From Ariolimax columbianus (Eukaryota; Mollusca; Gastropoda; Stylommatophora; Arionidae), in NCBI GenBank assembly GCA_036924085.1, contig JAVGWX010000011.1, positions 41,029,970 through 41,093,969 of the forward strand: DNA of 64,000 nucleotides, read 5' to 3'. Under the pieces are notes generated by a model that was not told the DNA's origin, ran no database searches, and worked only from the letters and a program-made list of their open reading frames with translations. Below, piece after piece: positions 8,650 through 54,500 of this stretch (positions are counted from its first letter, which is position 1; each line of letters starts with the position of its first letter). The translations under genes and the position numbers were made by a program.

Positions 8650-8682
<33 letters not shown>

Positions 8683-10094
8683 GTTGACCCAAAAGAGACC
8701 TTGATGCTGGGTTGTGAGTTTTGTGGGCAATTGATGAATTTGCACAAGCCTCACGGAGGTGGATGTCCCATTATTGGCAGCTCCTGGCTCTGATTTACGG
8801 AAGGCAATACCATTCATCTCTTTGCTCAATACATGAAGAGAGTGGTCTCCCTGTAGGACAGACGTGTACCCTCTAGCCATGTGCCGGAGCGAGCAGAAAT
8901 GCCCTGCTGACATGTGCGACCATCTCTAAGCGTTCTTGGTGGGCTGTTGGAGACATAGCAGGTCTTGACACTTTGTTTGGTGCGCAGTCCGACGATGCGT
9001 AAGATTCGTCTTTCCAGCGATGACTGCACACGGGGTTATTCTCCTGCGGTGCAGGAGGTCCACTTTCCACGTGCTGAGTTGGATCTGAAAATGACAGTGG
9101 TATACCTCGCGACTTAAAAATGTGGTGCTTCGTGTGGTTACATTCTACAAAATTTGACCTATTGTTGCCAGTGGGTAAATTAACACACAGGTGCCCATGT
9201 GGCGATAGACTCGGTGGATTGCTCTAGCTTGGCCACAGTTTCTGTGTCGCCTGTGCCTTGCACGTGGTGATCGGTGGTCGATGCTTGTGGTTTCAGTGGG
9301 AGGATGCGTCGACTGATGATGTAACGGACTCACACTACAATTAGCCCATCGGTTATGTAGCAAGTGGGTGTGACAAATCACGAACGCTACAGTGTGCACA
9401 CATGTAGATGTGCACATATGTAGGTGTGTAGATATGTAGGTGTGTAGATATGTACGAATGAGTATATATATGTGGACATTTTAATTTACACTTATGTATG
9501 TATTTATAGGTTTATATATGTATATCCCTTCTGCGGGCATCCTCACCACTATATATCCACACTTAATATAATTATACTACTATTACATCAACCTTTTTGT
9601 ATCTATAATTATTTAATCAATTATCTACCTTTCTATTGTTCTTCTGTTCCTGAGCCTACCACACATTCAACACATAATTGACTGCGAGAGCTAGAGGGCA
9701 CAGGTGAGATGAGGGATCTACAAGGGGACACACAAATCAGTGAATCGCTTACAAGTTGGAGTACATGAATGCGATGGAAAAATATGAGAGCAGGCAAAAC
9801 CTGATACACCAAGACCAGACAGAAGGAAGTCAACACAGATGGGCCTCACAACAGAAGGAAGACACTTTTCAATTAATTTATATTGTACTCTTAATCCTTA
9901 TGTATCAAGTATATTGTTTGTTATATTTCCCAATCATTCCATCTCATTCATTATCGTTGTACACCTCACTACACTGCTATCTTCACAATTGTGTATAAAA
10001 TGTATGAGGGGGCTTTATATATTTTTTTTTTTTTTTTTTTTTTTTTTAAATAGAAGGAAAAAAAAAAAAAAAAAAAAAGGAAGGAAAGAGGGGA

Positions 10095-19100: not shown

Positions 19101-22100
19101 TTATTTTTTGTTTTGTTTTTAACAAAGTTTAAGGAGAAGATCAGGTCTTAGTCGAGGAGACAGAACAGGCTGTATAGCACTTACTCTAGTAAATTAGCAG
19201 CACCACAAAGGACCACAGAATGAAGATAAATCGAAAGAAGACAAAAGTTATGATTTTTGTAAGAGAACCACAAGCAGCAAATCTAGAAATAGAAGGCCAA
19301 CACATCGAACAAGTGAAACAGTTTCCATATTTGGGACAAATCAATGCTGAGGATGATCATTACAAGGAGGATATAAAAGATAAAACTGCAATGGGGAAAA
19401 CAGTGTTCACAGAGACACTGAGAACTCTATCACCGAAAAGTACAAACATCTCCCTCCATGAAACAATTCACAACACACTGTAAGGCTCAGAGATATAGGC
19501 TTTAAACAAGTGAGAGGAAAAGCATTTGGAGACTTTTGAGATGTATTTTTTGAAAGATGAGAAATATTAGCTAGATGCAAAGGAAGTGTACAATAGATGA
19601 TTAAAAAAAAATAATTTTGGCAATAATAAGTAGGCAAAGATTGTACTGGTTTGGCCATAATCTGAGACACACTGCTCTAGTACTATATGTATTTGCTGAT
19701 CTTCTTCGTCGCTCGTTCTCAAATTCCCGCTACCAAACATGAAAAGGGCTTTGCAAGTAGCAGGATGTTATCCGAAGAATGGAATGTGTTGTCGTAGTTT
19801 TCAGCTCAACTGCAATATTTACACTTTTTGGTCCGACTTCAGCAGACATTTTTGGGTGCCAGATTAGTCTTTCCTCTTCGATCCCGTCTCCTTAGACAGT
19901 CTGATCTGTTGCAGCCTGTTATCCAGGATCACCATGTGGAATTGTAGAAGGGTCTTGGCAGCGCTAGTTCGATGGCCCTATTTGCTAGCAGTCAGCTTTG
20001 GACTGCTGCATCTCATGCACTGCTCACTATCTTGATTCCTGTCTGTGCTGATCAGGGTAGGAGATGCGGCAATCAAGGAATAACCTGACCACACAGGATT
20101 GTCGGGATGGGGCAGTAAAATCCTACGCAGAACTCAAAAGTGCAGCAGAGGACAGGTGGCATAAGTGTGACAAGTTACAGTCTCTTCAGAACCAGTCTGA
20201 GGACTAAATAACTGATGATAATGTGGTTAATCAAATATTTAGGGTGGGTCAGAGATGGTTTCGGCACTCAAGAGTCGAACTGTCTCGATCTCCAATCTTC
20301 TTCTTCTTCTTTGTACGCAGTCAGACAGTAACCATTATTTTTTCGAAAAAAGCGGCGGTCATCCTGAGGCTGTCGCCACTGCCATAGAGCTTGTCTTGCA
20401 GTTCCACTGGTGATGGCCACATCTGCTCTCTCTGATCCTCGTATGTCGGGCAGTTCTGCAGCAGATGTTCAGCGGTCATTTTACCAGTACCGCACGGGCA
20501 TTCGTCGGTACCACCTATCTTCAATTTGTTGAATAGGTGGTACCTCAGTCTATTGTGGCCAGTGCGAAGTCTGAAGACAACGACCTGCTCTCTTCGGTTC
20601 AACTGGTAATAGGCATCGTTTTTGGTGTAACCAGTATGTTCGGTTTCCCATTTGGTCATGTATCTGGCTTTGATAAGCCGTTTTGACTCTTTGTACGTCA
20701 TACTAGTATCTGTTTGTCGTAGTCTTGCACCTTCTTTTGCCAGTCTGTCTGCCTCCTCGTTGCCTTGGATGTTGCAGTGTGATGGGACCCACTGTACCAC
20801 TACCCTTTTTGGTGCGGACTGCTGGCACAGTTTGCAGAGTGCTGCTCTTAAGTCATTAAGCTCAGTGTTTTTCTGGCTTTTTAGCGCTGTGACTACGGCC
20901 AGAGCATCTGTAAGCAGGACTATATGGCTTTCATTTTCATTGTGTGTCACCATTTCTTCCACTGCCACCCTCAGTGCCTCTGCCTCCGCTCTGAAATTGC
21001 TTGTGTACTTACCAGTAGCGAATGACAGTGTTATTTGTCTGCCATTTGGTAGGTTCAGGAATGCTCCTGCCCCTCCGTTCCGTGTAGTGTTTGTTACAGA
21101 ACCGTCGGTGTATGCATGGGTCCAGTCCATGCTTGGGTAGCTTTTTGATATAAAGCTTAGGGTAGTATCTCTCCTTTCTTTTTCAGTCTGGCAGTTTTTG
21201 TTTCCAATACCTGGTATATTTTCTACCACTTCTGGAAATACATCCTGCCTCCAGGTAGGTTTTCGTACAGTAGTGATGGGTTTTGGTGTTGTTAGTGCGT
21301 TTATGGGATCTTCGTGCATCTTTGCTTTGGCTATTTCTGCAATGTTTCTCCGCTTTAGTTTCCCATTTTCCAAATTGTTTAGTCTCTGGTGCATTGGATG
21401 GTCAGTCAGTCTTCGGAGTTTCTCTGCCTGCAGCTGGGCTCTGCAGTCTCTTCTATCGGTCATGGATTGCAGTTTTGTAATCTTTTCAAGTTCTACAATT
21501 GGCGTTGACTTCATGCCTCCTGTTATAACTCTCATGGCTTGGTTTTGAAGTTTGCTAACTTTATCGAAGTTCGCCTTTGCTGCTGTTGTCCATGCCGCAA
21601 TGCCATACTCGAGAACTGGTCTCACTCTTCCAGTGTACAGTTTCTTTAGTATGCCTTCATCTGCTCACCAGCTTGTGCCAGCAAGTTTCCTCATGATTGC
21701 CATTCTTTCTCTGGCTCTCATTCGGTTTCTCTCGATCTGACTTTTCCATGTCATGCGCCGATCAAATGTGACTCCCAGATAGGTTGGGTTGTCGTTTGGC
21801 TGCAAGAATTTGCCATTTAAACTTAATTTGGTATTTTGGGGTTTTATTGAAAGCGAGAATATTGTGCATGTGGTTTTCTCCTCGTTTATTTTGACCAGCC
21901 ATGAGTTCACCCACTCTTCCAGCGATGTTAGGGCCTGCTGCATCCGATTTCTTGCTATGGTGAGATTCTTTTCAGAGGTCCACATAGCCAGATCGTCTGC
22001 AAACATTGAGCTATGGACTCTCCTTGGTATATTCTCTGTAATGTCGTTTATATATACCAGGAAGAGTGTGGGTGACAGTACTCCCCCTTGGGGTACTCCC

Positions 22101-25100
22101 TGCTCGAGTGTCACCTTTTTGCTCATCTGCTCTTGTACTTGGACTCTGGCCGTTCTTTGTTTGAGGTAGTGGTTGATCCACTTGTACATTTTCCCACAAA
22201 CATCACTTCTTCTTAGCTTGACTCTAAGTCCGTCTTTCCAGACTTTGTCAAATGCCTTTTCCAGATCCACCCAAACGGCTACTGTGTGTTTCTGTGCCTG
22301 GTAGGCATCTTCTATTTCCTGGGCTATGAGGATGACCTGGTCCTCAGTGGATCTGTGCTGTCTAAAACCGGCTTGCTGTGGAATTAGTATTCGTTTTTCT
22401 TCCAGATGCCACATCAGATCTCCAATCTGATATTGGAGGCTGTTGTCATATATGCTGAAATCATTTTGCGATCACAAAAATCCTGCACCAACTGGCGACT
22501 GAACCTTGATCGCTCGGCTCGGAAGCCAGTGCATTAACCACTCTGCACTACCTCAGCTCCCAAAATAGATAATGTAGCATCAACTAAAAGACGTAAACAA
22601 ATATGATTATTTACAGTTCATGTTGTAGAAAGTCAATATTTTTTTTAACAGACAGTGTTGGTGGTCCAGCTTGGAGCTATTTCTCTGCTGTATGCTGGTT
22701 GTATGGGAAAGCTATACACAAAGCTCTAGGATATCCTATAGGTCTAGTGGCCACAGACTGGGGTGGTACTCCTATAGAAGCTTGGTCATCTCCTGAAGCC
22801 CTTGCCAAGTGTGGTATCCATGGTAAAACCACAGGCCAGCAACCTGATTCATTCATAAAGTAGGTTTTTAATGCAAAGTTAGTGTTTAAATAAACTTAAT
22901 CTGCATTTTAAGTTAATTTAATATTTATGAATTGTGTGGAGGGATTTGTTTGATCCTTTGCTGCAGGTTTTGATTTTTGTGGTTCATGAGCATTTATGCA
23001 CAGAATATAGCAAGTGGTACGCAGAGAAATTATTTGACTTGCTTAGAGGGAATATTGCTGGACAGCTACAGGTTTGTTTCAACAAAATTAAAAGTATCTT
23101 AAAATTGAACAAAAATTGGTAGAGAAACTAATTTAGTAAAAGTTATAGATTGTTTAGCAATTTCAGGCTCAAAATGTCTTTAAAAATGTAAAACTTTCAT
23201 GACGGGTTGAATGTTAAAGCTGAATTTTTAATAGTAGATATTACATAGTATATAACAGTTGCCCATCACAAGCAAAATTGGCAACAGCATAAGACTTGTG
23301 CTGCGAGATGTGTTCTCATATGGCTATAAAGACTAATCCTGGCACAGCAGACTTTGTCACAACCGGCTCACACATGTGAGGAGTTACCTGTGGAGTTGTG
23401 CATTCTGCTCTTTCGGCAGCACAATTTTTTGAAGCCTCCGAGATGGAGTTTTACTCTGCAATCTAAGTACCTTTGGTATTGTTTGTGCGCCAGGTAGATT
23501 TTTGTGCAAGCAACCAGGAGGTGACATCAATGTTGAAGCTTTTCAAAGACACTTTCAAGGAGTCTCTATAGTGCTTCTTTTTTCCCCCTTATAGGCATCA
23601 CTAATAATAATTCCTTTTCTGAGCTCACCATATAACAGCTGCTTGGGGATGTGCTCATCAGACATGCAAATAACATGTCCCATCCATCTTATCTCTTCTT
23701 TTTGCAGAAGTGAATGGATGCTCAAAATGTTAGTCTTGTTAAGAATTTTAGAGTTTGGCACTTTGTCCTGACACCTGATCCTGAGTAGCCTACACAGACA
23801 GCTCAAGTGATAATAATTAAGCTGTGGGGCATGTCTGCTATATACTGTCCATATTTCACAAGCTTTCAGCAGAGTGGTGAACACTACAACATGATACACT
23901 TTTACCTTAGTGGTGACACTGATGCCTAGTGGGTTCCAGACATTTGCTTGCATACTTTCAAATGCAGAGCTCGCTTTTGCAATACTGATGTTCATATCAG
24001 AGTCAATATTTGTCTCTCTGGTGAGGGAACTGTCTAGTTAGGTGACACTATTGACTGCCTAGAGACATTGGTTTTGTACAGTAATTATTGGTTCAATGTC
24101 CAGCTTCCCAGAGCAGACTAGAAGCGTACCTCAGTTTTTTAAGTGTTGAACATGAGGCCAAAGTTACTGCATGTCATCAAAAACTCTGTCATGGTGAACT
24201 GCATATTTTGTTCTGAGCAGATGTTAAGGACACAGTCATCAGCGAGATCAAAGATCATGACCTCACTTACCTTGGTGTGAGACTTCAAACATCTCAGATT
24301 AAACAACTGACCTTTCATCCTGTATCTGATAGCAGTGGCACTTACATCATCAGGGAGCAATGCTGCAAAGACCATGCTAAAGAGTGTCTGTGCCAGCACA
24401 CATCCCTGTTTGTGACTGGGAATTCTACGGAAAATGTTCCTTCATGCAATACTTGAGCTATCATGAAACTGACTTACTACCACAATGAATCTGCCAGGGA
24501 AACGAAACTTCTCCATGATTTTCCAGAGTCCTTCCCTATTGGTGGTGTCAGATCGATGTAAACTGTGTACAGGTCACAATACTGCTCTTGATATTTCTTC
24601 TGAAGTTGATGTGATGCATATATCATGTCTGCTGTCTCATGACCTGCATGAAAACCCTGCTCAAAGTGACCACTTAGGCTGTTGAGCAGGACTCAGGCCA
24701 GATACTTTGCCTGCAATTGACAGCAAGGAGATACCTCTGTGATTGATGCAGGATTGATGGGTACAACTATACAATTGGGACATCTTTCATCTCCTGTGAA
24801 ACTTTCTTTGCTTCCGATATACAACAAAAGAATGTAGTCAGTTCTTGGAGGAATACAGAACCCCCTGCTTGGTAAATATCAGCAGGGAGCGAATCTGACT
24901 CAGGATCTTGCCTCTGGACATTGTGACAAAAGGGTTTCTGACCTCAGCCTCACCAAGTTTGAGATAAAGTCCCTAGTTAACAGCAGCTTGAGACATACGA
25001 GTAATGGCATGTTTGCTGATGATATATGTATATAGCAACAAAAAAACTTTTTAATGGAACAGGATTTTTTTAAAATACGCACCTATGGAAGGGGATCCTT

Positions 25101-35560: not shown

Positions 35561-38500
35561 TACTAAGAAGAAAATATGTTTTAGCATTGAAAGATATACA
35601 GAGTATATTAATTAAATTGCACTATTTGCAGAATAAATCAAAAACACTTCAAAAATTTAATTTAAAAGTTAAAATTTTCAGCAAAAAAAGGTGGGTTACA
35701 CCAACATAATAATTATGTAATTTTTCTTATAATTTGTTCAAAACTTAATGACAGCCAAATACATTTGTAGCTAATACATATCATTTATTTTTGAAACATT
35801 TGCTTTATATTGAAATGTCTTGAATTACATGCTGAGCTGATAAATTTAATCTTTTACTGTGTAGCACTGGTATATCTTATGTTATTACAGTGCCTAAATG
35901 TCGGCGGCCTAGTTTTGTTCTTGTGATTTAGTCCATTATGGATGCGGTCAGGCCACGGATTTGTCTGGAATTCACTCTAGTTGATGACTAACATTTGTGT
36001 TCACGGAAAAGTGTTGTAGTTTCCATTTGGATTAGTTACTTTGTTTATTTTGTGGTGGATTTCCTTAGATTATTGGGCATAGTCTATGACTATTTGCAAT
36101 AGTATTTTGGTTACTCTGTGTTGAATTTCCACGGTCGAGTACACACGGCTGAACTTCACGAGACTGGCGTCTTTTACCCTGTATGCTGACAGTACTGGTT
36201 TTGGTGTAGCTGTAAAATGTACACACTGGCCAATAATAATGAGCTAACAATCATTATGAAGAAATTAGGTTCTGCCAGTTAGCAAGTTGTCTATGATACT
36301 GCTCATACAGTGAGGGATGTTGTCGAGAGGTAAGGCACTCGCCTCTCAAAGCGATGAATGGAAATGGTTGGCGATCTAATCCCGCAAATTTCAAGTGACT
36401 CCTGGTCTCAAAGAAGGTGAGACCAGAGTGCCTGCATCCTGAGCTATCTTCAGTCTTCTTGACAAGTCTTACCACTGGTCCAAGTTAGATTGGGACCAGA
36501 GAGTGGGGTTGATGAGCAACGCAGTTTCGTCCTCACTATAATCCAAATACAGTGCAAATTACATCATCAAGACAAAACCGTCTAATGATGTTGCAATCAT
36601 TGCTTGCGATGAGCAACTAACTACGTAACTTTCTTATTTTATGGTGACTGAAAAACATGAAAGGTTAAAACATAATTCTAGGTAAGAACAGAAACAGATA
36701 AGGATAAATGTTTCAACTATTAAAGGTATTTATTAAGAACTGGACAACATGAAAACAAAGCAGAATAAATCAATTAACTAAGCTAAAAGAGTAAAAAAGA
36801 AGAATGAGGAAAAATGGAGGTATCTATTATAAAATGGAGCTGAGAGAACAGCAAAAAAAGCTGCAGTAAAATGTGTGTCAATATTAACCCTTTACATTCC
36901 AGTCTAATTGATTTGATTTGTCTTAACCCTTTACAGTCCAGTCTAATTGATAATATTCATATCTTAAGACAGCAATCTAATAAATTAGGCTGGACTGTAA
37001 ATGATTAAAATTGGGAATGACTTGTTATTGTTATTTTCTATCATCATTGCTTTCCAGCTTCAATGCAGTTTTTCCCAATTTTAAATTCTTATTGAATAAA
37101 CATCATGTTAGATAACTAAAAGAGGGCTAAAGATGTAGCACAGTGAATGAGCTGACAGTAGCTAGGTACTCATAGCTGGCTGCTTGGACCAAGTCAGCGA
37201 ACCATAACTGACCAAGACCCTAATCTGCAGCCAAGCAATGGCCCTGGAAACAGGTTGCTCTAGTGTAGTCTGGCTAAGAGAATAGGGATCACAATGGGAT
37301 GGCAAACCTTGTACCCAAAAATAACCAGTTTAAATCGGATGTGCCGGGCCAAAAGGCACAGATATCACAACCTTGCTGTAAACTCTGACACAATGTCATT
37401 TTCATCCTTTTCAGGGCTATCGCAGCAGTAGAAAAAGATAACTGAATATTTATTGCTAAATGAACTGGATTTCAGTGGATAAAGTTCTTATGAAAACCAA
37501 TTTTGTGGACTCATTGTTGTACTTTGTGTCTCATCATTATTATCATTTTTACAGTATTCACCCTCGTGACAAAGAAGATGTTGGGTACAGGTTAAGTCTC
37601 AGTGGCCTTGCTGTTGCCTATGGCAGGTCAGAACTTTATCAAGGCCCATTTCCAGTACAGGGTGAAGTGACATCAAAAGGTCTGAAGATTCTCTATGGTG
37701 ATAAATGGAACTTGGAAGTTAGAGACACAGCTGGTTTTGAGGTATTGAACAGATACCATCTGTAAACATTAGTTAGCAAGTACACAATTCTTTGCTTACG
37801 GTTTCATGGTTATGTGTCTTTAATAATTCTAGCAAAAGTATATTTACTTTACTTTACTTCTTTTTTTGCTTTGCCCGGTAACAAGCACAAAATTGTTAGG
37901 GCCCTTTTAATGGAATTGCAATATAAATAACACCTAATGGAAGGCCAGATATCTTACTTCAACAAAGGAAACAGCAGCACTGTTTAGCTAAAGGTTTCTT
38001 TCAACATCTTTCAAGTGTCTAAGCCTGAAAAATGACTATTTTTGTAATGTTCTGCAATTTCTGATATAACTGTGATTGAAATGTCAGTGGATAGAAGTCA
38101 TGCCTTCAGTGTTAAGAAGGTATGTGGTAAAAATGTCTTTGAATACAAGAGGCATAAATTTGCCATTAAGAAAATTCTTAACTTTTAACTCAGCAATATT
38201 TAAATTCTGGTCTGGATAAGAATGTGCAAAAAAACAAATGAAGTATGAGTAATATTCTTCTCTCATCATTTGCGATTCTGTTGCTAATTTTTTAAATCTG
38301 AACTTTCCAGATTAAGAAGTGCCTTATGAGGTTACCTAATGACTTTCTTAGTATGTATTCTTTATGTTAGGGCTACTTCTTCTTCTTCTTCTGCGTACGC
38401 AGTCAGACAGTAACCATTATTTTTTTGAAAAAAGTGGCGGTCATCCTGAGGCTGTCACCACTGCCATAGAGCTTATCTTGCAGTGATGGCCACATCTGCT

Positions 38501-41500
38501 CTCTCTGATCCTCGTATGTCAGGCAGTTCTGCAGCAGATGTTCAGCGGTCATTTTACCAGTACTGCACGGGCATTCGTCGGTACACCCTATCTTCAATTT
38601 GTTGAATAGGTGTAAGTGCGTTTATGGGATCTTCGTGCATCTTTGCTTTGGCTATTTCTGCAAAGTTTCTCCGCTTTAGTTTCCCATTTCCCAAATTGTT
38701 TAGTCTCTGGTGCATTGGATGGTCGGTCAGTCTTCGGAGTTTCTCTGATTGCAGCTGGGCTCTGCAGTCTCTTCTGTCGGCCATGGATTGCAGTTTTGTA
38801 ATCTTCTCAAGTTCTACAATTGGCGTTGACTTCATGCCACCTGTTATAATTCTCATGGCTTGGTTTTGAAGTTTGTTAACTTTATCGAAGTTGATCCACT
38901 TGTACATCTTCCCACAGACATCACTTCTTCTTAGCTTGACTCTAAGTCCATCTTTCCAGACTTTGTCAAATGCCTTTTCCAGATCCACCCAAACAGTTAC
39001 TGTGTGTTTCTGTGCCTGGTAGGCATCTTCTATCTCCTGGGCTATGAGGATGACCTGGTCCTCAGTGGATCTGTGCTGTCTAAAGCCAGCTTGCTGTGGA
39101 ATTAGTATTCGTTTTTCTTCCAGATGCCACATCAGTCTGGTGTTTATCATCCGTTCCATCAGCTTGCCGACACAGCTCAGTAGGCTTATGGGCCTGTATC
39201 CATTTGGATCTGTTTTGTCCTTTCCTGTTTTTGGTACTGGTACCAGTATTGCGTCTTTCCATGCCTGTGGTACAATTCCCCTTTTCCAGCTTTGGTTCAG
39301 GACCGATAGCAGTTTCTTCTTCGCTGTTTGGCCCAGCCCTATCAGCATTTCGTTTGTTATCCCGTCTTTTCCGGGAGATTTCCTTTTCTTTAGTGTTCTC
39401 ATAGCCTCTTCCGTTTCGCGCATTGTTAGTTTGGCCATCATGTGCTCTTCAGGTGCCGTATTCATGTTTTCGTGTCCCTTTAGCTCTTCGCTAATGTCTG
39501 TATGCTTATCTGCAGGGACCTCGATGTGGTTTGCTCTGGCATAGTGATCGACAAAAGCGTTTGCGGCTTTCTTACCTGTGATCAAGTTCTCGCCCTGCTT
39601 GATAGTAATTTGTTTATTTGACGGGGTTTCGTCGTTCATGGCTCTGACTAGCTTCCATAGCTTGTTCCCGTCTTTGTCCAGGTTTAGACTTTCCGTTTTA
39701 TTTTTCCAGCTTTCTCTTGCTGTGTGCTTGAGAGTGTGTTTGTACTTCGCCGCGGCGGCTTTGAGGGCCATGTTTGCCTCCATGGATTTTTCTCGCTCTG
39801 CCATGTTCCTAGCATTTGTTACTGCATCTTCCACTTTCTGCAACTCATCATTCCAGTAGGGCTTATAGTTTTTCCTAGCTCCTCTTGGGATGGTTTCAGT
39901 GGCGGCTTGCATTATTGCCTTGCTTAGGCTCTCTACCATGGGCTTCATTTTGGTGTTTCGTGTGTTGATGGTTTCACACAGCCCATCTGTCAGGATTGTA
40001 AATCTGTCCCAGTCGGCTCGTTTGTAATTCCAACGTGGGAGCGGTTTTGTTTCCTGTGGGCCTACTTCCATGTCAATGGTTAGCCTGATCGGCCTGTGGT
40101 CGCTACCTGCTAGTTGGTTTAGCACCTGGCGGTCTATTTTATGGTGTATGTCCTGTGTGGAGAAGGCCAAATCTGGAGTCGAGGTGGTATGCCATGTTCT
40201 TGAATAGAAGCTAGGGCTATCCTCCGGCCTATTGATTAGGGAGAGATTTGCATCTATCTCCCAATCTTCCACTTCGTCACCTCTGCTGTCTGTGTCAGAG
40301 TATCCCCATCTCTCCGAGTGGCTGTTGAAATCTCCAACTACTATGCAGTTGGAGTCTCTGACCTCCCTACTCGAGAGCGATAGGTCTCTATTTGGTGGTC
40401 CGTACAGATTGAAAATGCGGAGCTTCGTCTCTTGAGCCATTATGTCAACTCCTACAATTTCTGCGTGTCCGGTGTGATTGACAGATACCGCGCTACTCGG
40501 TATGCAGTTTCTGGTCAGTATCAGGACCCCTCCTTTGTGGCCTTCTCTATCTAGACGGAAGGTCTGGTATCCTCTGATTGAGAATTTATGGTTATTGTTG
40601 AGGTGCGTTTCCTGGATACATGCCACGTCAATCTTACCTTCATGCAGGTGATGTGTTAGGGAAAGTTTTTTGTTAATGACTCCCTCCGCATTCCACTGTA
40701 GTATTTTGAGGGTCTTGAGGTTTTGGCCAATAGAAGTTGTCCCATAGCTATGTGCCTTGACTCCACGACACATGGGTGGGTGACCACCAGTAGTCAAGGG
40801 TGGGCCCCTTCGAGGCGTGAGGCCCGGCACTATCGCTGCCTGGCGGGACTCCGCAGGATGAGCGCCATGCGTTTTTCTAATAGGTTGTACTGCCATCATG
40901 CGGCGATTTACGTTGCACTGTTTTGTTAGGCTTGCGGCCCCGTGCATCCGATTTCAACAGGCGTTTCTGTAGGGATGCCCTCCTTAGCCTTTGGCTGTCC
41001 CCAGCCTATCTGCAAGGCAGCAGTTGTTTATGATCAGAGTTGTCTCTCTTATGGAAGTTGTCTTACCAGACTATCGAGTCTTCACTACTCGTGTCTATAG
41101 GGTGCAATGATGATATGTGAGATGATATATGAGATGGACTGGTTTACCCGGAAGAGAGGCAGTCCAGTGTGTCTGCATCCCAGGATCGTCACGTCCTGCC
41201 AGAAACGTAGCATTTGCATGTGAGTGGGGTATCTCTTTCTCCCTTTATTTTCTTTGCTTCTATGCAGAGATGGTACGCCTAGCATTCCCCGCCACCTGGG
41301 GTGTTGACACAGTGGGGCAGGTGTGCAATGTCCGCTGGTCTGCATCTCTTCTGCGTCCAGCATGATAGTTATATGGCTGATAACGTACAGAGGTAGATAT
41401 CGTAGCCGACGTGCATTTAGCCGGAGGACAAGTCTGGTAATGCCACTGAGATGTTGTTCGCCTGGTGTGCGGACAGCTCTCATGGTCATTGGTTGAGTCT

Positions 41501-42536
41501 CGACAGTTTAGTGAGGTGGCTGTTCTACTGTTTTCGACACCCGACCAGGTACTAAGTCTTTAGTTGGTGGTTTCGCACCCCATCGCCGTATAAGGTGAGT
41601 ATCAAGCAGTTGTCCGCCCGCTTTGATCGGCGGACGGCAAGGACCTCTTGCTGCGGCTCTACCGGATAGGGCTGGGTCCCTAGCATGTAGGAGCCTCCCA
41701 TTGCAGAGGTGCTGAGATTTTGGGCGGGATTGCGGCTTACAAGGGTTCGGCCGTAATCCCCCACATGGTAGCCTCGCGCCATTGGCTTATCAGCCTGGTA
41801 CGTGAACCAAAGTGTCTGCGGCTCCTCTCGATATGAGCTGGTTTTCCGTAGCAACGCCCTGTCATTAGTAGGGTAAAACTGACCTGTCTTCAGATGGTCT
41901 ATTTCCAGCACCCGTTCACTATTTGGTCAGACGAATTTATTGAGGGCTTTTGTTTGTCAATGACCAGGTATTTAAAATCTGCGGTTTCTGCGGGGTTAAA
42001 CACGATTTCCGTAGCGTTCTTTCATTAGAGTGTTTGAGAGCTGACTTGTCTTCCATGAGTCTAATACCAGCGTACGTTCATTTTTAGAACCAAACGGTAG
42101 TGCTCTCGATTTGTCAGTCGTTCTACAGTATTGGCGTGTTCAGTCAAATAAAGCCGCAGGTTCCACTCCTGGTGGTGACCTTCCGTCAATTCCTTTAGCG
42201 AGACAATCAAGTTACTTAGAGGGTGGCCCCAGATTTTCGAGGGTCTAATTCCAGCACATGTTCACTATTAGACCCCACGAAGGTGCTCTCTTTTTGACCG
42301 TCATTCTACAGTATTGGCGTGTTAAGTTAATTTAAGCCTCAGGCTCCACTCCTGATAGTGCTCTTCCGTCAATTCCTTTGTCAGAACACTCGATGCAAAC
42401 CAACCGAGCCACAGGGGGCATAACCCCAGATTTCTGAGGGTCTAAATCCAGCACCAGTTCCATATTAGACCCCAGAAAAGTGGTCTCGGCATGTCAATCA
42501 TTTCAGTGTTGGCCGTGTTGAGTCAAATTAAGCCGC

Positions 42537-42570
<34 letters not shown>

Positions 42571-45500
42571 TCTTTAAGTTTCAGCTTTGCAACCATACTT
42601 TCCCCGGAACCCAAACACTTTGGTTTCCCGGAAGCTGCCCGCAGAGTCATCGAAGCAACTCCTGCGGATCGCTAGTCGGCATCGTTTATGGTCAGAACTA
42701 CGACGGTATCTGATCGTCTTCGCGCCTCTGACTTTCGTTCTTGATTAATGAAAACATTCTTGACAAATGCTTTCGCAGTAGCTCGTCTTGCGGCGATCCA
42801 AGAATTTCACCTCTAACGCCGCAATACTAATGCCCCCGTTTGTCCCTGTTAATCATTACCTCCAGTTCCGAAAACCAACAAAATAGAACCGAGGTCCAAT
42901 TCCATTATTCCGTGCACCATTATTCAGGCAGCCGAGGCCTGCTTTGAACACTCTAATTTTTTCAAAGTAAACGCGCCGACCACCCAGGACGCTCAGTGAA
43001 GAGCACCCGTGGGAGAGAGCCGGCAGACGGTAGGGCAGGAGACAACGGGCAGTGAACCGGCGCGAGCCGGACCGCCCGCCTGCGCCTGAGATCCAACTAC
43101 GAGCTTTTTAACTGCAACAACTTTAATATACGCTATTGGAGCTGGAATTACCGCTGCTGCTGGCACCAGACTTGCCCTCCAATAGATCCTCGTTAAAGGG
43201 TTTAAAGTGTACTCATTCCAATTACGGGGCCTCGAAAGAGTCCCATATTGTTATTTTTCGTCACTACCTACCCGTGCCGGGAGTGGGTAAGTTGCGCGCC
43301 TGCTGCCTTCCTTGGGTTAGGGCTACTAAAATGGTGTTCCCCCAATAACCGGTGTTCCGCGAGCTAGCAGTATCAAATATTTGATTATACCTACATATTT
43401 TGTATCTATATTTCTTTATTTTAGTATCTTATATTAATATTTTCAATGAAACTATATCTATCTGTTGGAAGACAAGGATGCAATGTACATCTTTCAATGA
43501 ATTTTGTTTTGGTGGTTTTCTTCATCTTCACCAATGAGATTCTAGTCACTCTGAATTACTCTTCTATTTTTCTTTCCCATGTGTTATTTGACCTCATTCT
43601 TCTCGTGCTTTGTAAGTTCAATCCAAAAACATCTAAGGATTGGTTTTGGCGATATACACTTTCTCATATGATGTTTGTGACAGTATCATCATCAGGTCAG
43701 TCAGTCCTGAGACTGATGTTGGTCTTCTGATCATGTCACATCACTGTTCTCTATTAGTCAGTCCTGAGACTGATGTTGGTCTTCTGATCATGTCACATCA
43801 CTGTTCTCTATTAGTCAGTCCAAAGACTGATGTTGAAGTCTTCTGATCATATCACATCACTGTTCTCTATTAGTCAGTCCTGATGTTGAAGTCTTCTGAT
43901 CATATCACATCACTGTTCTCTATTAGTCAGTCCTGAGACTGATATTGAAGTCTTCTGATCATATCACATCACTGTTCTCTATTAGTCAGTCCTGATGTTG
44001 AAGTCTTCTGATCATATCACATCACTGTTCTCTATTAGTCAGTCCTGAGACTGATGTTGAAGTCTTCTGATCATATCACATCACTGTTCTCTATTAGTCA
44101 GTCCTGAGACTGTTTCTGAGACTGATGTTGGTCTTCTGATCATATCACATCACTGTTCTCTATTAGTCAGTCCTGAGACTGATGTTGGTCTTCTGATCAT
44201 ATCACATCACTGTTCTCTATTAGTCAGTCCTGAGACTGATGTTGGTCTTCTGATCATATCACATCACTGTTCTCTATTAGTCAGTCCTGAGACTGATGTT
44301 GGTCTTCTGATCATATCACATCACTGTTCTCTATTAGTCAGTCCAAAGACTGATGTTGGTCTTCTGATCATATCACACCACTGACCTTTGTCAGTCAGTC
44401 CGGAGACTGATGTTGGTCTTCTGATCATGTCACACCACTGACCTTTGTTAGTCAGTCCAGAGACTGCTGTTAAAGTCTACTTATCAGCTAACACCACTGT
44501 CCAGTTTGAAGACAGATGTTGAAGTCTGTTGGTTGTATCAACCCACTGTTCTGCCATGGTAGCGCAGGGGTTAGTGCTTCCTAGTCAGGGTTCAATCCCC
44601 AGCTGGTGCGGGTTTTTATTTCTGATCACAAACCGACCCCTGTTTTCAACCCAGCCACAGAAATTTGGTACCAGAAAAATCTGCGAAGTAAAGGCAGCCG
44701 GCGTTATACTGACCCCATCATCCACTATGTGCCGTCAGTCACAAAATAATATGGACCTAACACCATATTTCCTAAGCAACGCAAGGCGTGACGGGATCTT
44801 TTTTTTTTACCCACTGTCCTCTGTTCCCAGCAGATCTCTTCAGCTCATTATAAGTCTGCACACTTATGTTTTTGCAAGCTTGTTTGACATAATTGTTTCT
44901 TGGATGTCCCCTTTTTCTTTCCCCTGAATTTTGTCATCAAGTATTTTCAAAAATAAGCCTCCAAACCTCATGTTGTGGCGAAGACAATCTACCATTTTGT
45001 CTACTTGTGATTAGTTGTCTAAGTGGCCCTATATCTTTAAGTATCTATTCATTTGACCTTGTTTCTGTTCAGCTCACTCTTTGCATCCTTTTTGTTTAGA
45101 GTCCATGTTTTAAATCCGTACAATGCTACGGGTCAGATATGTGTAGTGATTTTTTTGTTTCATCATGTGGAAGAAGCAACTAGAGCCAAAAACACACTTT
45201 ACCTTGTATTTGCTACAGAGGAAAATATTATTGTAAATGTAATCATTGGAGAACTGTTTGGCTCAAGTAACCATCAGATTATACGTAGGGATTTTGTAGA
45301 AAGGAAGGAAGAAAACATAAGTACAAAAACATATGACTACTCTAAGACAGATGTTAAGAAGATGAAAGAAGTAACAAGCCACATGATCTAGTAAGATATT
45401 GACAGTGGAACTTCTTCTACTTCATTGATCAACTGATGCTATGCTTCTTAGTCTGGTGAGGTTCACGAAGGAGACTCTGCATTTCAGGTCTTTGCCAGTT

Positions 45501-48500
45501 CCCCCATAGCTTTTCGAGCATGGTCACTTCCCCAGGCCAGACTGCCACTCTTTCATCTGCATAGGTAAGACAGTCCTGTAGAATATGTTCTGTTGTTTGC
45601 TTTGGTGCTCCACGATTGCACGTGGGGATGTATCTGAGACCCATTCTGTGGCGGTTGGTCTTGAATCTACAATGTCCCGTCTTAGTCTGAATATTTTTTT
45701 TCTGCCATCTCTGACAACTTTGTCTATGCTGTCATTTTCTGGCTTGTATTCTTTGTATTCATTCTGTCCTCATAGATTGTTTGATGAGTTTTTTTGTTTC
45801 TTTATATCTCTGTGTGTCCAAGAGTTGCTAGTGTATTGTCTCTTGAGCTCCTGCAGAATGTTGGTTATTTGTTTGTTCTTTTGCTGATTGCTCACTTTTC
45901 TTTGTTAACCCTGGAACTTCCTAGATTATTTTGGACCTGTCCTGACTCTGTGTCCATGGTTCTGGAAAAGGTGCTTTGCACTTTTTGTTTTCAGCTTCAA
46001 GGGTGGACAGTGGAAAAAATGTTGAGGAAGTGTGGGAGAATGTCAAAACAATTCTAGGAAACCTAAACTAAGACTTTGTTTCATGTAGGTAAACACCTAA
46101 ACTAAATAAGTGGATAATTAGATATGTAGTTAAATGTAGAAGAGCTAAACAATAAAGCATGGACAAAATAAAAATACAATTTTTGTTTAAAATAAAATAT
46201 TTGGGCAAACAAAACATACAGAGGAAATGGTTTTTAAACAATTGGGGAGGTTAAAAGTGAATAAATGTCTGGCTCAAGATGGTATTCATCCAAAATTGCT
46301 GTTTGAAATTAGAGACATTTTAGCAAAACCATTGGCTATATTATTTCTCAAACACTTGCGAAGGGGACTATTCCAGGGAATTGGAAAGATGCATGAGTGA
46401 TCTCCTTCTTTAAAAATGGAAGACAAAAAAATCAGTTTCAGCAAATTGTAGACTAGTGAGTTTAACAAGTATTGTCTGTAAAATGTTAGGTTCTATAATA
46501 AAGAAATCATTGCATCATATTTAGACAAATTTACCTACTAATGACAGGGCGTTGCTACGGTAATCCTGCTCAATCCGAGAGGAATCGCAGGTTTCAGACA
46601 CTTGGTCATTGACTGACTAATACCTCTCTCTTGATCCGTTGGGTCTAATAGGGAACGGGTGCTGGTATTAGACCCTCGGAAGACAGGTCAGTTTTACCCT
46701 ACTAATGACAGGGCGTTGCTACGGAAATCCTGCTCAATCCAAGAGGAATCGCAGGTCTCAGACACTTGGTCCACGTGCCTAGCTGATAAGCCAATGGTGC
46801 GAGGCTATCATCTGAGGGATTACGGCCGAACGCCTTTAAGCCGGAATCCCGCCCTGAATCAAAGCACCACTGCGACGGGAGGCAACGATATGGTTGGGAC
46901 GTGGGGCTCGCGTCCCAGCCCGACCTGGTCGAGTCGCTAAAAGAGGTCTCTGCCGTCCCGCCGTCAAAGCGGGCAGGGAGCTACTCGATATTCACCCCAT
47001 ACAGCGTTGAGGTGTGAAACCACTAGTAGAAGACTTAGTTCTCGGTTGGGGTGTCGTAAGCAGTAGAGCAGCCACCTCACTGCGAACTGTTGAGACTCAG
47101 CCCTTGATCATGAGATATGTCCGCACACCAGGCGAACAACATCTCCGTGCCATGACCAGGCTTGTCCCCTGGTTAAATGCACTCCTGCCTCGCTCTTTAC
47201 CTCTGTCTGCTATCAGTCATCCCAATGGACGCAGAAGAGATGCAGGCCAGCGGACATTGCACCTCTGCCCTATTGTGATAACCTCCCAGGTGGCGGGGAA
47301 TACAGAGAAGCCGAGAAAATAAAGGGAGCAAGGAGATACCCCACTCACATGCATATGCTACGTTTCTGGTAGGACGTGACGATCCTGGGACACAGACACA
47401 CTAGACTGCCTCTCTTCCGGGATACTTAAAAAAATAGTACATACAGTCCATTATATCATATAATATCATATCACCACCACACCCTATAGACACAAGTGGT
47501 GAAGACTCGATAGTCCTGCACGACAACTTCCCTAAGACAGACAACTCTGACCACAAACATCTGCTGCTTTGCAGATAGGCTGGGGACAGCCAAAGGCTAA
47601 GGAGGGCATCCCTACAGAAACGCCTGTTGAAATCGCTTGCACTGGGCCACAGGCATAACGAAACAGTGCAACGTATATCGTTGTATGATGACATTACAAC
47701 CTAACAGAAAAAAGTATGGTGCTCATCCTGTGGAGTCCCGCCAGGCAGCCAGAGTGCCGGGCCGCACGCCTCGAAGGGGCCCACCCAATGCTACTGGTGG
47801 TCACCCACCCATGTGCTGTGGAGTCAAGGCACAAGGTGATGGGGCATAAACTATTGATCAAAAACCAAAGACCCTCAGAATACTACAGTGGAATGCGGAG
47901 GGAGTCATTAACAAAAAGATTGCCCTAACACATCACATGCATGAAGGCAAGATTGACGTGGCATGTATCCAAGAAACGCACCTCAACAACAACTACAAAT
48001 TCTCAATCAGAGGATACCAGACCTTCCGACTTGATAGAGAAGGTCATAAAGGAGGGGTTCTGATACTGACACGTAACTGCATACCGAGTAGCGCGGTAGC
48101 TGTTAATCACACCGGACAAACAGAAATTGTAGGAGTCGACATAATGACACAAGAAACGAAGATCCGCATCTTCAACCTGTATGGCAACCCAAAAAAGACC
48201 TGTCGCTCTCGAGTATGGAAATCAAGGACTCCAACTGCCTAGTGGTTGGAGACTTCAACAGCCACTCGGTGAGATGGGGATATTCGGACACAGACAACAG
48301 AGGTGATGAAGTGGAAGACTGGGAGATAGACACAAATCTCTATCTTATCAATAGGCTGGAGGACAGCCATAGCTTCTATTCTAGAACATGGCATACCACC
48401 TCTTCTCCAGACTTGGCGTTTTCCACGAAGGATATTCACCACAAAATAGACCGCCAGGTGCTCAACCAATTGGCAGGTAGCGACCACAGGCCAATTAGGT

Positions 48501-51500
48501 TAGAAATTGATATGTAAGTAGGAAATAAAACCGCTCCCATATTGGAACTATAAATGAGCCAACTGGGACAGATTTGCAATGCTGACAGATGGGCTGTGTG
48601 AAACCATCAACACACGGAATAACAATATGAAACCTATGGTGGAAAGCCTAAGCAAAGCAATAATGCAAGCAGCCACCGAAACCATCCCAAGAGGGGCAAG
48701 GAAAAACTACAAGCCATATTGGAATGATGAACTACAGAAAGCGGTGGATGAAGTCTCAAATGCTAGGAACATGGCAGAGAGAGAGTAATCTATGGAGGCA
48801 AATATTGCCCTCAAAGCCATCACGGCGAAATACAAAAGAACACTAAACCAAATAACAAGAGACAGCTGGAAAAACAAAACAGAAATCCTCAATCTAGATA
48901 AAGAAGGGAACAAACTATGGAAGTTAGCCATGAATGACGAAACACCATCAAATAAACAAATTACCATCAAGCAGGGAGACAACACGCTTACTGGAAAAAA
49001 AGCAGCAAATGCCTTTATAGAACATTATGCCAGAGCAAACCACATTGATGTCCCTACAGACAGGCATACAGACATTAGTGAAGAGCAAAAGAACCACAAC
49101 AACATCAAGATGGCACCAGAGGAGCACATGATGGCAAAACTAACAATGAATGAAATGGATGAGGCCATGAGAACTTTAAAGAAAAAGAAATCGCCCGGAA
49201 AAGATGGGGTAACAAACGAAATACTGATGGGTTTGGGCCAAACGGCAAAGAGGAAGTTACTATCAGTCCTGAACCAAAGCTGGAAAAGGGGAATTGTACC
49301 GCAGGCATGGAAAGACGCTGTACTTATACCAGTACCAAAGAAAGAAAAAGATAGAACAGATCCAAATGGATACAGACCTATCAGTCTACTGAGCTGTGTA
49401 GGAAAACTGATGGAGCGTATGATAAACACCAGACCAATGTGGCATCTGGAAGAAAAACACATACTAATTCCACAAGAAGCAGGATTTAGACAGCACAGAT
49501 CCACTGAGGACCAGATCACTCTCATAGCCCAGGAAATAGAGGATGCTTACCAGGAGAAAAAACACACAGTAGCGATTTGGGTGGATTTAGAGAAGGCATT
49601 TGACAAGGTGTGGAAAGAGGGACTTAAAGTCAAGCTACGAAGAAGTGAAGTTTGTGGGAAAATGTACAGATGGATCAGCCACTACCTCGAAAACAGAACA
49701 GCCAGAGTTCAAGTACAAGGGCAGATGAGCATAAAGGTGACACTTGAACAGGGAGTACCCCAAGGGGGAGTACTGTCACCCACACTTTTCCTGGTGTATA
49801 TAATCCACATCACAGAGAATAAACCAAGAAGAGTCCACAGCTCCATGTTTGCAGACGATCTGGCTATGTGGACCTCTGAAAAAAACCTCACCATAGCAAA
49901 CAATCGGATGCAGCAGGCCCTAACATCATTGGAGGAGTGGGCGAACTCATGGCTGGTCAAAATAAATGAGGAAAAAACCACATGTACGATATTCTCGCTT
50001 TCAAGTAAACCCCAGAACACCAAAATAAGTCTTAACGGCAAATATCTGCGTCCAAACGTCAACCCAAACTACCTGGGAGTCACATTTGATTGGCGCATGA
50101 CATGGAAAAGTCAGATCAATAGATACCGAATGAGAGCCAGACAAAGAATGGCAATCATGAGGAAACTTGCTGGCACAAGCTGGGGAGCAGACGAAAGTAT
50201 ACTAAAGAAACTGTACACTGGAAGAGTGAGACCAGTTCTCAAGTATGGCATTGCGGCATGGACAACAGCAGCAAAGGCGAACTTTTATAAAATTAGCAAA
50301 CTTCAAAACCAAGCCATGAGAGTTTTAACAGGAGGCATGAAGTCAACGCCAATTGTAGAACTTGAAAAGATTACAAAGCTGCAATCCATGATTGACAGAA
50401 GAGACTGCAGAGCCCAGCAGCAAGCAGAGAAACTCAGAAGACTGACAGATCATCCAATGCATTAGAGACTAAATAGATTTGGAAATGGGAAACTAAAGCG
50501 GAGAAACTTTGCAGAAATAGCCAAAGCAAAGATGAGCGAAGACCCTATGAACACCCTAACAATACCAAAGCCCATCCCTACTGTACGAAAACCTACCTGG
50601 AAGCAGCATATCATTCCGAAGGTGGTAGAAAATATACCAGGTAAATGAAACAAGAACAGCCAGACTGAAAAAGAAAGAAGAGACATAACCCTGAGGTACA
50701 TAACGAAAAACTACCCAAGCATGGACTGGACCCATGCATACACCGACGGTACTGTAACAAACACAACACAGAACGGAGGGGCAGGGGTATTCCTGAGCCT
50801 ACCAAATGGTAGAAAAATAACACTGTCAGAGGCAAATGGAAAATTCTCAAGCAATTTCAGAGCGGTGGCAGAGGCACTGAGGGCTGCAGTAGAAGCAATG
50901 CTGACAGGCGAAAGAAATGAAAGTCAGATAGTCCTGTTTACAGATGCCCTGGCCGTAGTCACAGGACTAAAAAGACAGAAAAATACTGAACTTAATGATT
51001 TAAGAGCAGTAGTCTGTCAACTATGCCAGCAGTCCGCACCAAAAAGAGTAGTGGTACAGTGGGTTCCATCCCACTGTAACATCCAAGGCAACGTGGAGGC
51101 AGACAGACTGACAAAAGAAGGTACAAGACTACCACAACCAGATTCTAGTGTGACCTACGAAGAGTCCAAAAGGCTTATTAGGGCCAAATACATGGCCAAA
51201 TGGGAAACAGAACATACTGGCTACACAAAAAATGATGCCTATTACCAGCTGAACAGAAGAGAGCAGGTCGTAGTCTTCAGACTCCGCACAGGCCACAACA
51301 GACTGAGGTACCACCTATTCAATAAACTGAAGATAGGTGGCACTGACGAATGCACTTGTGGTACCGGAAAAATGACCGCTGAACATGTGCTGCAAAACTG
51401 CCCGACATACGAGGACCAGAGAAAGCACATGTGGCCATCACCAGTGGCAACACTAGACAAGCTCTAAGGCAGTGCTGATAGCCTCGGGATGACAGCTGCT

Positions 51501-54500
51501 TTTTTCGAAAAAATACAGGTTGATGTTTGACAGCGTACGAAGAAGAAGAAGAAGACAAATTTACTTTAATCAGATATAGTAGCAAGGGTTTACTAAAAGG
51601 AGATCATGCTTAACAAATCTATTAGAATTCATGGAAGATATTACCAAACCAAAATGATAGATAGAGGGAGCCAGTGGATTTTATTTGTTTAGATTTTGCA
51701 AAGGCATTTGATAGAGTACCATATCAAAGATTGTTTAGAAAGTTTAAATCTCATGAAATAGTAGGGGAAGTTACCAAATGGATTGAATATTGGTAAACGG
51801 GATAAAGGAAGAGAGTGGACATAAATAAGGAATACTTTTGGGTGGTGTGAGGTAAAAAGTGGAGTGCCACAGAGCTCAGTTTTAGGATCAATTTTGTTTT
51901 TGATATGTATAAAATAATTTAGACAATGATATTGAATCCATGGTTGCAAAATTCACGGATGACACAAAACTATCCAGAAGTGTCTCATCTAAAGCATAGG
52001 TGGATATATTGAGATTGGATTTAGATAGAATTCAAGAATCGTCTCTGAGCTGGCAGATGGAAATTAATGTAGATAAATTTACAGTCATCCAGATGGGTAG
52101 ATCCAATATGGAGTTTAGTTACAGGATGGGAGAGAACAATATAAAGAAGATAGAAAAGAAAAGGGACCTAGGGGTTATAATAGATCATACAGGTAAGGCG
52201 AGTGAGCAAGTCCAAGTAGCAGTGGAAAAGGTAAATGCAATGTTAGGTATGATAAGAAATATTAAACATAGGAGTAAGGAGGTGATTGTCAAACTGTATA
52301 AAGCATTAGTTAGACCTAGATTGGAGTATTGTGTACAGGTGTGGTCCTTATTGTATAGGAGATATAAACATGCTGGAAACAATACATAGAAGAGTGACAA
52401 AGCTGATAGTGGGATTCCAGAATTATAGTTATGAGGAAAGGCTCAGTAAAACCGATTTACGGTGTCTAGAAAAAAGAAGAATTTGAGGTTTATAAGACAA
52501 TTAAGAGAAAGGATAAATTAGACTAACAAGTTTTTCAAAGTACAAGCAGCTGCTAGAACAAGAGGACACAGCTGCTAGAACAAGAGGACACAGCTGCTAG
52601 AACAAGAGGACACAGCTGCTAGAACAAGAGGATACAGCTGCTAGAACAAGAGGACACAGCTGCTAGAACAAGAGGACACAGCTGCTAGAACAAGAGGACA
52701 CAGCTGCTAGAACAAGAGGACACAGCTGCTAGAACAAGAGGACACAGCTGCTAGAACAAGAGGACACAGCTGCTAGAACAAGAGGACACAGCTGCTAGAA
52801 CAAGAGGACACAGCTGCTAGAACAAGAGGACACAGCTGCTAGAACAAGAGGACACAGCTGCTAGAACAAGAGGACACAGCTGCTAGAACAAGAGGACACA
52901 GCTGCTAGAACAAGAGGACACAGCTGCTAGAATAAGAGGACACAGCTGCTAGAACAAGAGGACACAGCTGCTAGAACAAGAGGACACAGCTGCTAGAACA
53001 AGAGGACACAGCTGCTAGAATAAGAGGACACAGCTGCTAGAACAAGAGGACACAGCTGCTAGAACAAGAGGACACAGCTGCTAGAACAAGAGGACACAGC
53101 TGCTAGAACAAGAGGACACAGCTGCTAGAACAAGAGGACACAGCTGCTAGAACAAGAGGACACAGCTGCTAGAACAAGAGGATACAGCTGCTAGAACAAG
53201 AGGACACAGCTGCTAGAACAAGAGGACACAGCTGCTAGAACAAGAGGACACAGCTGCTAGAACAAGAGGACACAGCTGCTAGAACAAGAGGACACAGCTG
53301 CTAGAACAAGAGGACACAGCTGCTAGAACAAGAGGACACAGCTGCTAGAACAAGAGGACACAGCTGCTAGAACAAGAGGACACAGCTGCTAGAACAAGAG
53401 GACACAGCTGCTAGAACAAGAGGACACAGCTGCTAGAATAAGAGGACACAGCTGCTAGAACAAGAGGACACAGCTGCTAGAACAAGAGGACACAGCTGCT
53501 AGAACAAGAGGACACAGCTGCTAGAACAAGAGGACACAGCTGCTAGAACAAGAGGACACAGCTGCTAGAACAAGAGGACACAGCTGCTAGAACAAGAGGC
53601 CACAGCTGCTAGAACAAGAGGACACAGCTGCTAGAACAAGAGGACACAGCTGCTAGAACAAGAGGACACAGCTGCTAGAACAAGAGGACACAGCTGCTAG
53701 AACAAGAGGACACAGCTGCTAGAACAAGAGGACACAGCTGCTAGAACAAGAGGACACAGCTGCTAGAACAAGAGGACACAGCTGCTAGAACAAGAGGTCA
53801 CAGCTACAAATTATTTAAAGAAAGGTCCAGATTAGATAGTAAGAAATATTTTTTAAGTGACAGAGTGGTGAATGTTTGGAATGCATTGGCACATTGCCAT
53901 AGTAAATTATGGAGGCATGGTCAGTTTATGATTTCAAGAATAGCTTGGACACACTCAGTTATTTTTAGATCAAGTGGAGTTGCAGAAACTGGATTTATAC
54001 AGACTCTGTAGAGCCTTCTATACCAGTATTTAGAAGTTAAGTTAAGTATTAAGTATTATTCTTTCCCTAAGCTCAATATTGATGTTATTTGTTGTTATAA
54101 GTTTTGTCTACCATTTTCAGTCTGAGCTAAATTATCACCAACGTTCAATTCAAAATATGTACGAAAATACAGTTAGTAGAAGGGTAGAGTAGAGTGGATG
54201 GTACGTGAAGAACCACTGACTGACAGCTTCAGGGTGCAAACAGGGGTGAGACATGGATGCCTGCTCTCACCTTTCCTGTTCTTGTTGGCTATAGATTAGA
54301 TAATGAAGACATCAATAGAGGGTAAAAGAACTGGTATTCAGTGGACAATATTGTCACAATTGGAAGACTTAGACTGCACAGATGATCTGGTATATTTAGT
54401 TACACACTCATGGCAAAATGCAAGACAAACTTGATAGGGTGAAAGAACAATCAACCAAATTGGGACTATCTACATTTTAAAAAAAACAAGCTCCTTAAAC

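Follow-up and report, generated by a model that had tools for sequence, protein, structure and literature searches.

A 64,000-nt stretch of Ariolimax columbianus DNA (the window) holds two long copies of a LINE with ribosomal RNA sequence at their 5' ends. This raises the question of whether the rRNA is an accident of individual insertions or an inherited part of the element. LINE enzymes are known to jump from their own template onto cellular RNAs, mostly in single events, and the original prediction for this locus was that one such jump, onto the 3' end of 28S rRNA, had created a chimera that was then propagated. Pfam matches over the window copies identified an APE-type endonuclease (PF14529/PF03372), a reverse transcriptase (RT; PF00078) and an RNase H domain (PF00075). 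Judged by this domain content, the family is a LINE of the I superfamily type, and it may belong to the Ingi clade. The closest protein relatives among the matches listed are mostly single ORFs, mostly of about 1,200-1,300 aa; the best of them (P0001) is 67% identical and carries all three domains in a single ORF of about 1,280 aa. Four of the 120 relatives listed bear an organism name (Batillaria and Littorina), and no relatives of the LINE were found in viral contigs. A SINE28-type short non-coding element was ruled out because the family encodes endonuclease, RT and RNase H, and a site-specific rDNA element of the R1/R2 type was ruled out by the dispersed sites, the unrelated flanks and the differing target duplications. 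Elsewhere in the window (7228-8793), the translation of an ORF resembles the RT-RNase H region of a different LINE.

The features of the window copies are listed in the Table. In copy 1, the Rfam model LSU_rRNA_eukarya matches positions 46710-47118 (135.9 bits, E 1.6e-32), and with laxer filters this match reaches the last model position (3401 of 3401) at 47120. The last bases of the head, TGTC, are the 3' terminus of the 28S model, and a short 18S-like linker, identified by eye, sits between the two internal 28S repeats. The same model matches copy 2 at 41475-41860 on the minus strand (57.2 bits, E 8.5e-11). As predicted, a single junction is common to both copies, TGTC followed by CGCACACCAGGCG being read in each (in copy 1 at 47121/47122), and the rRNA lies inside 12-bp target duplications (AGACAAATTTAC for copy 1 and AGTAGCCCTAAC for copy 2). 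Both copies had also been described as beginning in 28S sequence. This is true of copy 1 but not of copy 2, which begins at 43315 in 18S (SSU_rRNA_eukarya, 357 and 115 bits) and then runs through short ETS, 18S and 28S units to the 28S 3' end. The 18S-derived part of copy 2 (42432..43315) shows 97.3% identity to positions 1052-1934 of the family head, and the order around its ETS-like unit at 42380..42431 recurs in L021, L025 and L022_1. The window also contains a 57-bp repeat array (43650-44552), which lies between the two LINE copies.

Table. Coordinates of LINE copies and of their rRNA-derived parts in the window.
Feature	Position	Strand	Remarks
LINE copy 1, subfamily A	46535..51552	+	begins in 28S-derived head; tail is (GAA)n
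5'-side target duplication of copy 1	46523..46534	+	AGACAAATTTAC
3'-side target duplication of copy 1	51553..51564	+	AGACAAATTTAC
28S-derived head of copy 1	46535..47121	+	Rfam; blastn against family head
Internal 28S repeat, copy one	46534..46607	+	start-to-start spacing 164 nt; same duplication in family head
Internal 28S repeat, copy two	46698..46771	+	96% identical to the first
LINE leader of copy 1	47122..47850	+	CGCACACCAGGCGAAC...; between 28S and coding region; end approximate
RT portion of the disrupted ORF, copy 1	48792..50465	+	Pfam RVT_1
RNase H portion of the disrupted ORF, copy 1	50721..51467	+	Pfam RNase_H
LINE copy 2, subfamily B	38378..43315	-	with internal deletions
5'-side target duplication of copy 2	43316..43327	-	AGTAGCCCTAAC
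3'-side target duplication of copy 2	38366..38377	-	AGTAGCCCTAAC
18S-derived part of copy 2	42432..43315	-	3' end runs into short 28S piece; Rfam
First short unit in copy 2, similar to the initial ~50 nt of the 5' ETS	42380..42431	-	gap between blastn matches, by eye
18S-tail/28S unit of copy 2	42235..42379	-	after first ETS-like unit; sequence comparison
Second short ETS-like unit of copy 2	42198..42234	-	by eye
18S tail and 28S 3' end of copy 2	41472..42197	-	joins leader at 41472/41471
ORF of copy 2, APE-type endonuclease and RT	38554..40947	-	internally deleted; Pfam
Third LINE copy, 5'-truncated, subfamily B	20296..22417	-	92-97% identity with copy 2 over shared parts

Searches with the 28S part as the query gave 5,401 first-look candidates, 40 of which were scored; the 39 non-self matches, at 93-95%, cover nearly the whole query. 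Since a sample obtained with a 28S query is biased towards 28S, copies were also counted by their leader. The first 24 bases of the leader occur 3,726 times as exact matches in the host genome (reversed control, 0), and TGTC, the last four bases of 28S, stands before 3,339 of these leader starts (89.6%). Likewise, all of the 20 copies that were picked by the leader alone, namely the first 20 places of the leader list, all on one contig, carry 28S through the 100 nt examined and represent at least three visible types. The junction base is identical in 20 of the 21 copies in the first 20 regions, the exception being L011, which has a deletion across the junction. The prediction that 28S is a standing part of the family is thus upheld: most copies do have 28S, the junction is constant but for the deletion in L011, and a one-off, non-inherited chimera is ruled out by the 3,339 leader starts that have it. 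Nor is the 28S part a perfect functional 28S, for the head of copy 1 departs from the conserved Rfam consensus (AAUCCAAGAGGAAU versus AGUACGAGAGGAAC) and the 28S also differs between subfamilies, the host gene itself not having been found. By script, target duplications adjoining the head were detected in 9 of the 21 fetched copies, two of them being only 8 bp long and L025 and L028, which have identical flanks, representing one insertion. An assembly or mapping artefact, in which ribosomal reads were fused to a LINE, has a negligible probability: nothing was found in its favour, and the junctions occur in thousands and on many contigs. This view is supported by the diverged 28S and by the target duplications beside the head in both window copies as well as in the nine fetched copies; the target duplications together with the divergence between subfamilies rule the artefact out.

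Many of the 21 junction copies extend upstream of 28S into 18S. Four of them (L009, L016, L020 and L023) reach nt 1 of the 18S and then continue for about 620 nt of sequence directly preceding it, which we take to be the 5' ETS; L018 has the same ETS start but a deletion across the ETS/18S border. L010 and L024 (Rfam position 4) were rejected as further copies reaching nt 1, because the sequence there is not 18S. All five ETS-containing copies begin with ATCTGGGGCTAG directly after unrelated DNA, and in L018 and L023 a target duplication abuts this start base. A search with the ETS as the query gave 3,494 first-look candidates (loosely scored); among the 40 that were scored, all 39 non-self matches begin at query bases 3-13, and 30 of them at base 6. 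Inspection of 32 copies (27 ETS-query matches and the five from the first sample) placed the ETS start at one base in 29, whereas two copies are 3 and 7 nt shorter and one is without the first base. We infer that this first base (at the start of ATCTGGGG) is the Pol I start. In the longest copies the head measures 2.5 kb and consists of the 5' ETS, 18S from its first bases and the 28S 3' end. The ETS occupies positions 1-624 of the family head, the 18S begins at 625 (Rfam positions 4-1116; by eye to about nt 1265, with a small deletion), and the 28S, with the 164-nt duplication, ends at 2539. Accordingly, the reading of the family as a chimera with inherited 28S stands, but it was too narrow in scope, the 28S being only the inner piece of a multi-piece pre-rRNA head.

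Several further observations concern the outer ends of the element. The base before the ETS start, as read by eye, is C or T in 22 of the 29 copies, G in 5 and A in 2, and with G in 5 of 29 there is no sign of a cap-derived G before the element. The minimum free energy fold of the first 50 nt is a hairpin. In 13 loci, including the five copies with the ETS start (L009, L016, L018, L020 and L023), no ribozyme family was detected at Rfam gathering thresholds, at which a divergent HDV-like ribozyme would be missed. Copy 1 itself is not full length, as longer genomic copies extend into 18S and ETS. It is, however, one of 5 among 22 copies (the others being L011, L019, L022 and L026) that start at one and the same 28S base, CTACTAATGACA. 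The query for this sample began at that base, by which shorter copies were excluded, but this should not have favoured starts at precisely that base. Given this recurrence, the truncation of copy 1 may not be random, and a strong stop, a processing site or an alternative start may be considered as candidates. A unit composed of ETS 1-50, 18S tail and 28S is repeated in L021, L025/L028, L044 and subfamily B; splicing was rejected as the cause of the ETS50/18S join, the joined ends being, by eye, without GT-AG. In 4 of the 21 copies (L017, L018, L021 and L023), the rRNA head and leader pass straight into the final few dozen bases of the LINE. The joints differ, as judged by eye, and these copies represent short internally deleted derivatives.

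We then have to ask whether the parts of this head are of the same age. The 28S of B copies shows 78-83% identity to the A head (17-22% difference in L022_1 and copy 2), and for the 28S of four B-like copies (L022_1, L039, L042 and L046) the distance amounts to 0.148-0.182 substitutions per site. Because the 28S differs by 15-22% between subfamilies while the junction has been kept, it can be regarded as an old, standing part. The 18S of copy 2, on the other hand, matches the A head at 98.4% identity over 749 nt, against only 78% for the 28S of the same copy, and the 18S of the A consensus is the same as that of L043 (0 of 543 nt different), the ETS of which differs from the A ETS by 17.7%. 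With the 18S nearly identical, the L043 ETS 17.7% off and the 28S 17-22% off, the 18S and ETS would seem to have been taken up separately from functional pre-rRNA, at different times and more recently than the old 28S. A separate switch point is seen, by eye, in L018, where the 18S runs past the 18S deletion of the family and then re-enters the family tail.

Uptake of this kind could in principle happen anew at each insertion: the LINE RNA would start in the rRNA-like tail, the enzyme would switch by homology to the 18S of pre-rRNA and run to the pre-rRNA 5' end, and only the 28S part would be inherited. Such recapture would account for the 18S of the A consensus and of L043 being the same as the inferred host 18S, and that of copy 2 nearly so, as well as for the different switch point of L018 and the different ETS of L043 and A. 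Nevertheless, we consider it quite improbable, since the A copies have in common the small 18S deletion and the 164-nt duplication, as well as some changes in tail and 28S that mark subfamilies (L025 and L028 being one insertion), and since the 3,494 loosely scored ETS candidates would demand a very efficient switch. Within subfamily A, the mean non-CpG divergence is 0.032 for the ETS, 0.025 for the 18S and 0.031 for the 28S. As the three parts have decayed alike, the head appears to arrive as one unit. In the nine copies with both parts, the divergence of the ETS is higher than that of the 28S in five and lower in four; L031 and L034 show high 28S divergence. The ETS variants that are common to at least three copies do not separate inheritance from recapture of the ETS, because 8 of these 12 are C-to-T or G-to-A changes. 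The A copies form a star-like tree with minute internal branches, in which the distance to the consensus is 2.6-4.4% for 20 of 23 rows and greater for the other three, L011, L022_1 and window copy 2. CpG sites in the A copies are 7-14% diverged, 2.5 to 4.3 times the value of other sites depending on the region, which suggests that these repeats may be methylated.

Pieces from the other side of the 18S were also found. A 5.8S search gave 53,434 loose candidates, and all 40 that were scored exceeded the cut-off, on many contigs. However, the 5.8S model is unspecific, ringing in 9 of 14 control prokaryotes, in 5 of them over the cut-off, and for this reason the best 12 matches, which were fetched, were checked by their sequence context (L040 and L041, at 99.3% over 2.8 kb, represent a duplication). 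Eight of the 12 loci (L038-L042 and L045-L047) have the 28S head and the leader downstream in sense, and in L044 the 28S head continues to the locus end. L048 carries contiguous ITS1-5.8S-ITS2-28S (LSU, 618 bits) beside LINE 3' sequence in the opposite orientation, and we read it as a 5'-inverted insertion. In L043 and L049, ITS2 is joined to the ETS start at one same point, as seen by eye, and neither LINE leader nor coding sequence is present within the locus. The 5' ends in ITS1, compared by eye, fall into three clusters of a few bases in 10 of 11 insertions (four, four and two), while L039 reaches further. These clusters fit natural 5' ends of processing intermediates; alternatively, they may be inherited, as L040 and L047 have other joints in common, or may be strong enzyme stops. 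Two ITS1/ITS2 types can be distinguished among L038-L049 (90-92% and 93-97% within types, 82-88% between them), which possibly correspond to rDNA of different ages or to two rDNA lineages. L047 contains a 28S-headed leader fused to ITS1 belonging to a second chimera, which looks like a jump of the enzyme from a pre-rRNA 5' end to another LINE RNA.

The main rival to template jumping is a LINE that adjoins 28S in an rDNA unit. In this case, the LINE would lie just after 28S in at least one, partly deleted, rDNA unit and be transcribed by Pol I as the tail of the pre-rRNA, and the dispersed copies would be dead descendants, cut at pre-rRNA processing sites or internally deleted. Such a resident master would account jointly for the ETS start and the ITS1 ends, it would suit the star-like A copies, which look as if they came from few masters, and it would agree with the contiguous ITS1-5.8S-ITS2-28S beside LINE 3' sequence in L048. 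What was taken for the leader (CGCACACCAGGCGAACAAC...) may simply be the host 3' ETS. Against a resident master, the 28S has changed at conserved positions and differs by 15-22% from one subfamily to another, with the 18S intact, whereas ageing or homogenisation should affect an rDNA unit in its entirety. Neither intact host rDNA nor a unit with the LINE in it was found: a query from the 5' part of 28S gave 89 candidates, and among the 40 that were scored, only the query itself was full length. The host rDNA array seems to be missing from the assembly. On balance, we regard a resident master as rather unlikely.

The explanation that we favour, and consider probable, is that template jumping occurred repeatedly, with the 28S 3' end as the first acceptor and pre-rRNA as the later one, and that the products were inherited. 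It agrees with the finding that a cellular RNA lies in sense at the LINE 5' end, inside the target duplications, and that the join is at the natural 3' end of this RNA as defined by the LSU model (3401 of 3401) rather than by host 28S. In a first step, having arrived at the 5' end of the LINE RNA, the RT would have switched to 28S rRNA at its 3' end, and copying of this chimera would have made 28S the fixed head of the family. The head was evidently built in more than one step. Subsequently, the same jump onto pre-rRNA, made from LINE RNAs that were already 28S-headed, would have added 5'ETS-18S in subfamily A, 18S in subfamily B, and ITS1-5.8S-ITS2 and 28S 5' pieces elsewhere. The outer ends of these additions recur (one ETS base, three ITS1 places), as if the enzyme had run off natural 5' ends, which would be those of the primary transcript and of processing intermediates. 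Lastly, subfamily A would have come to inherit the ETS-18S-28S head, so that the element RNA would now start at the ETS start, transcribed either from an internal promoter in the head or from few Pol I-transcribed masters. That 28S is common to A and B suggests that the start of transcription has long lain upstream of the leader. A more far-reaching idea, which we put forward tentatively and think somewhat doubtful, is that the LINE is a mimic of pre-rRNA: its RNA would start at the Pol I start site, carry 5' ETS and 18S and undergo synthesis or handling in the nucleolus, and the head would be the basis of the success of the LINE. If this were true, a dispersed LINE would have captured the strongest transcription and RNA-processing pathway of the cell.

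In the case described here, one jump seems to have given a family of thousands of copies its permanent front end, and this front end has been extended more than once, up to the apparent first base of the ribosomal ETS. A very abundant mobile element carrying host rRNA at its front indicates that such an element can take over rRNA and pass it on. This bears on the origin of new 5' ends and promoters in LINEs, and on the possibility that the ribosomal RNA pathway serves to express a dispersed LINE. In addition, the insertions form a fossil record of pre-rRNA, in which differing versions of the ETS and ITS have survived, possibly along with 5' ends of processing intermediates.

Searches of the open-access literature brought up no LINE family headed by pre-rRNA. 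Within the accessible text of a survey of gastropod non-LTR elements, rRNA is mentioned once, in the title of a reference (PMC11203168). In mammals, 18 chimeric L1/28S insertions have been described, with 28S segments of 50-482 nt that often start near position 3,636; 83% of the segments are in sense, and the chimeras were attributed to RNA ligation or template switching (PMC13174262). These insertions likewise join 28S to a LINE, but the accessible part of that report mentions no family, whereas the present LINE has a fixed 28S-3'-end junction in thousands of copies and extends to ETS and 18S (PMC13174262). SINE28, a mammalian SINE (PMC3576234), is stated with a citation to be of 28S origin (PMC13174262), and the SINE28 probe sequence given in PMC3576234 may, on our reading, correspond to the 28S 3' end. 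It resembles the present family in being a dispersed repeat of 28S origin, but SINE28 is non-coding, while the family described here is a LINE with endonuclease, RT and RNase H (PMC3576234). A lineage of R2 carries 28S-derived sequence in its 3' UTR, which has been tied to a shift of the target site (PMC5035012). In that lineage, too, 28S has been taken in for good, although here it is found at the 5' end and without an rDNA target (PMC5035012). R2 also template-jumps onto small stable RNAs, and one such jump may have founded a subfamily (PMC3414825). A template jump that leads from the 5' end of the LINE to a cellular RNA, and short internally deleted derivatives, are features that our family would share with R2 and the R2/R1 SIDEs; unlike R2, which is specific for a 28S site and needs a 28S cotranscript and a ribozyme, it occupies dispersed sites and carries kilobases of pre-rRNA as its head (PMC3414825).
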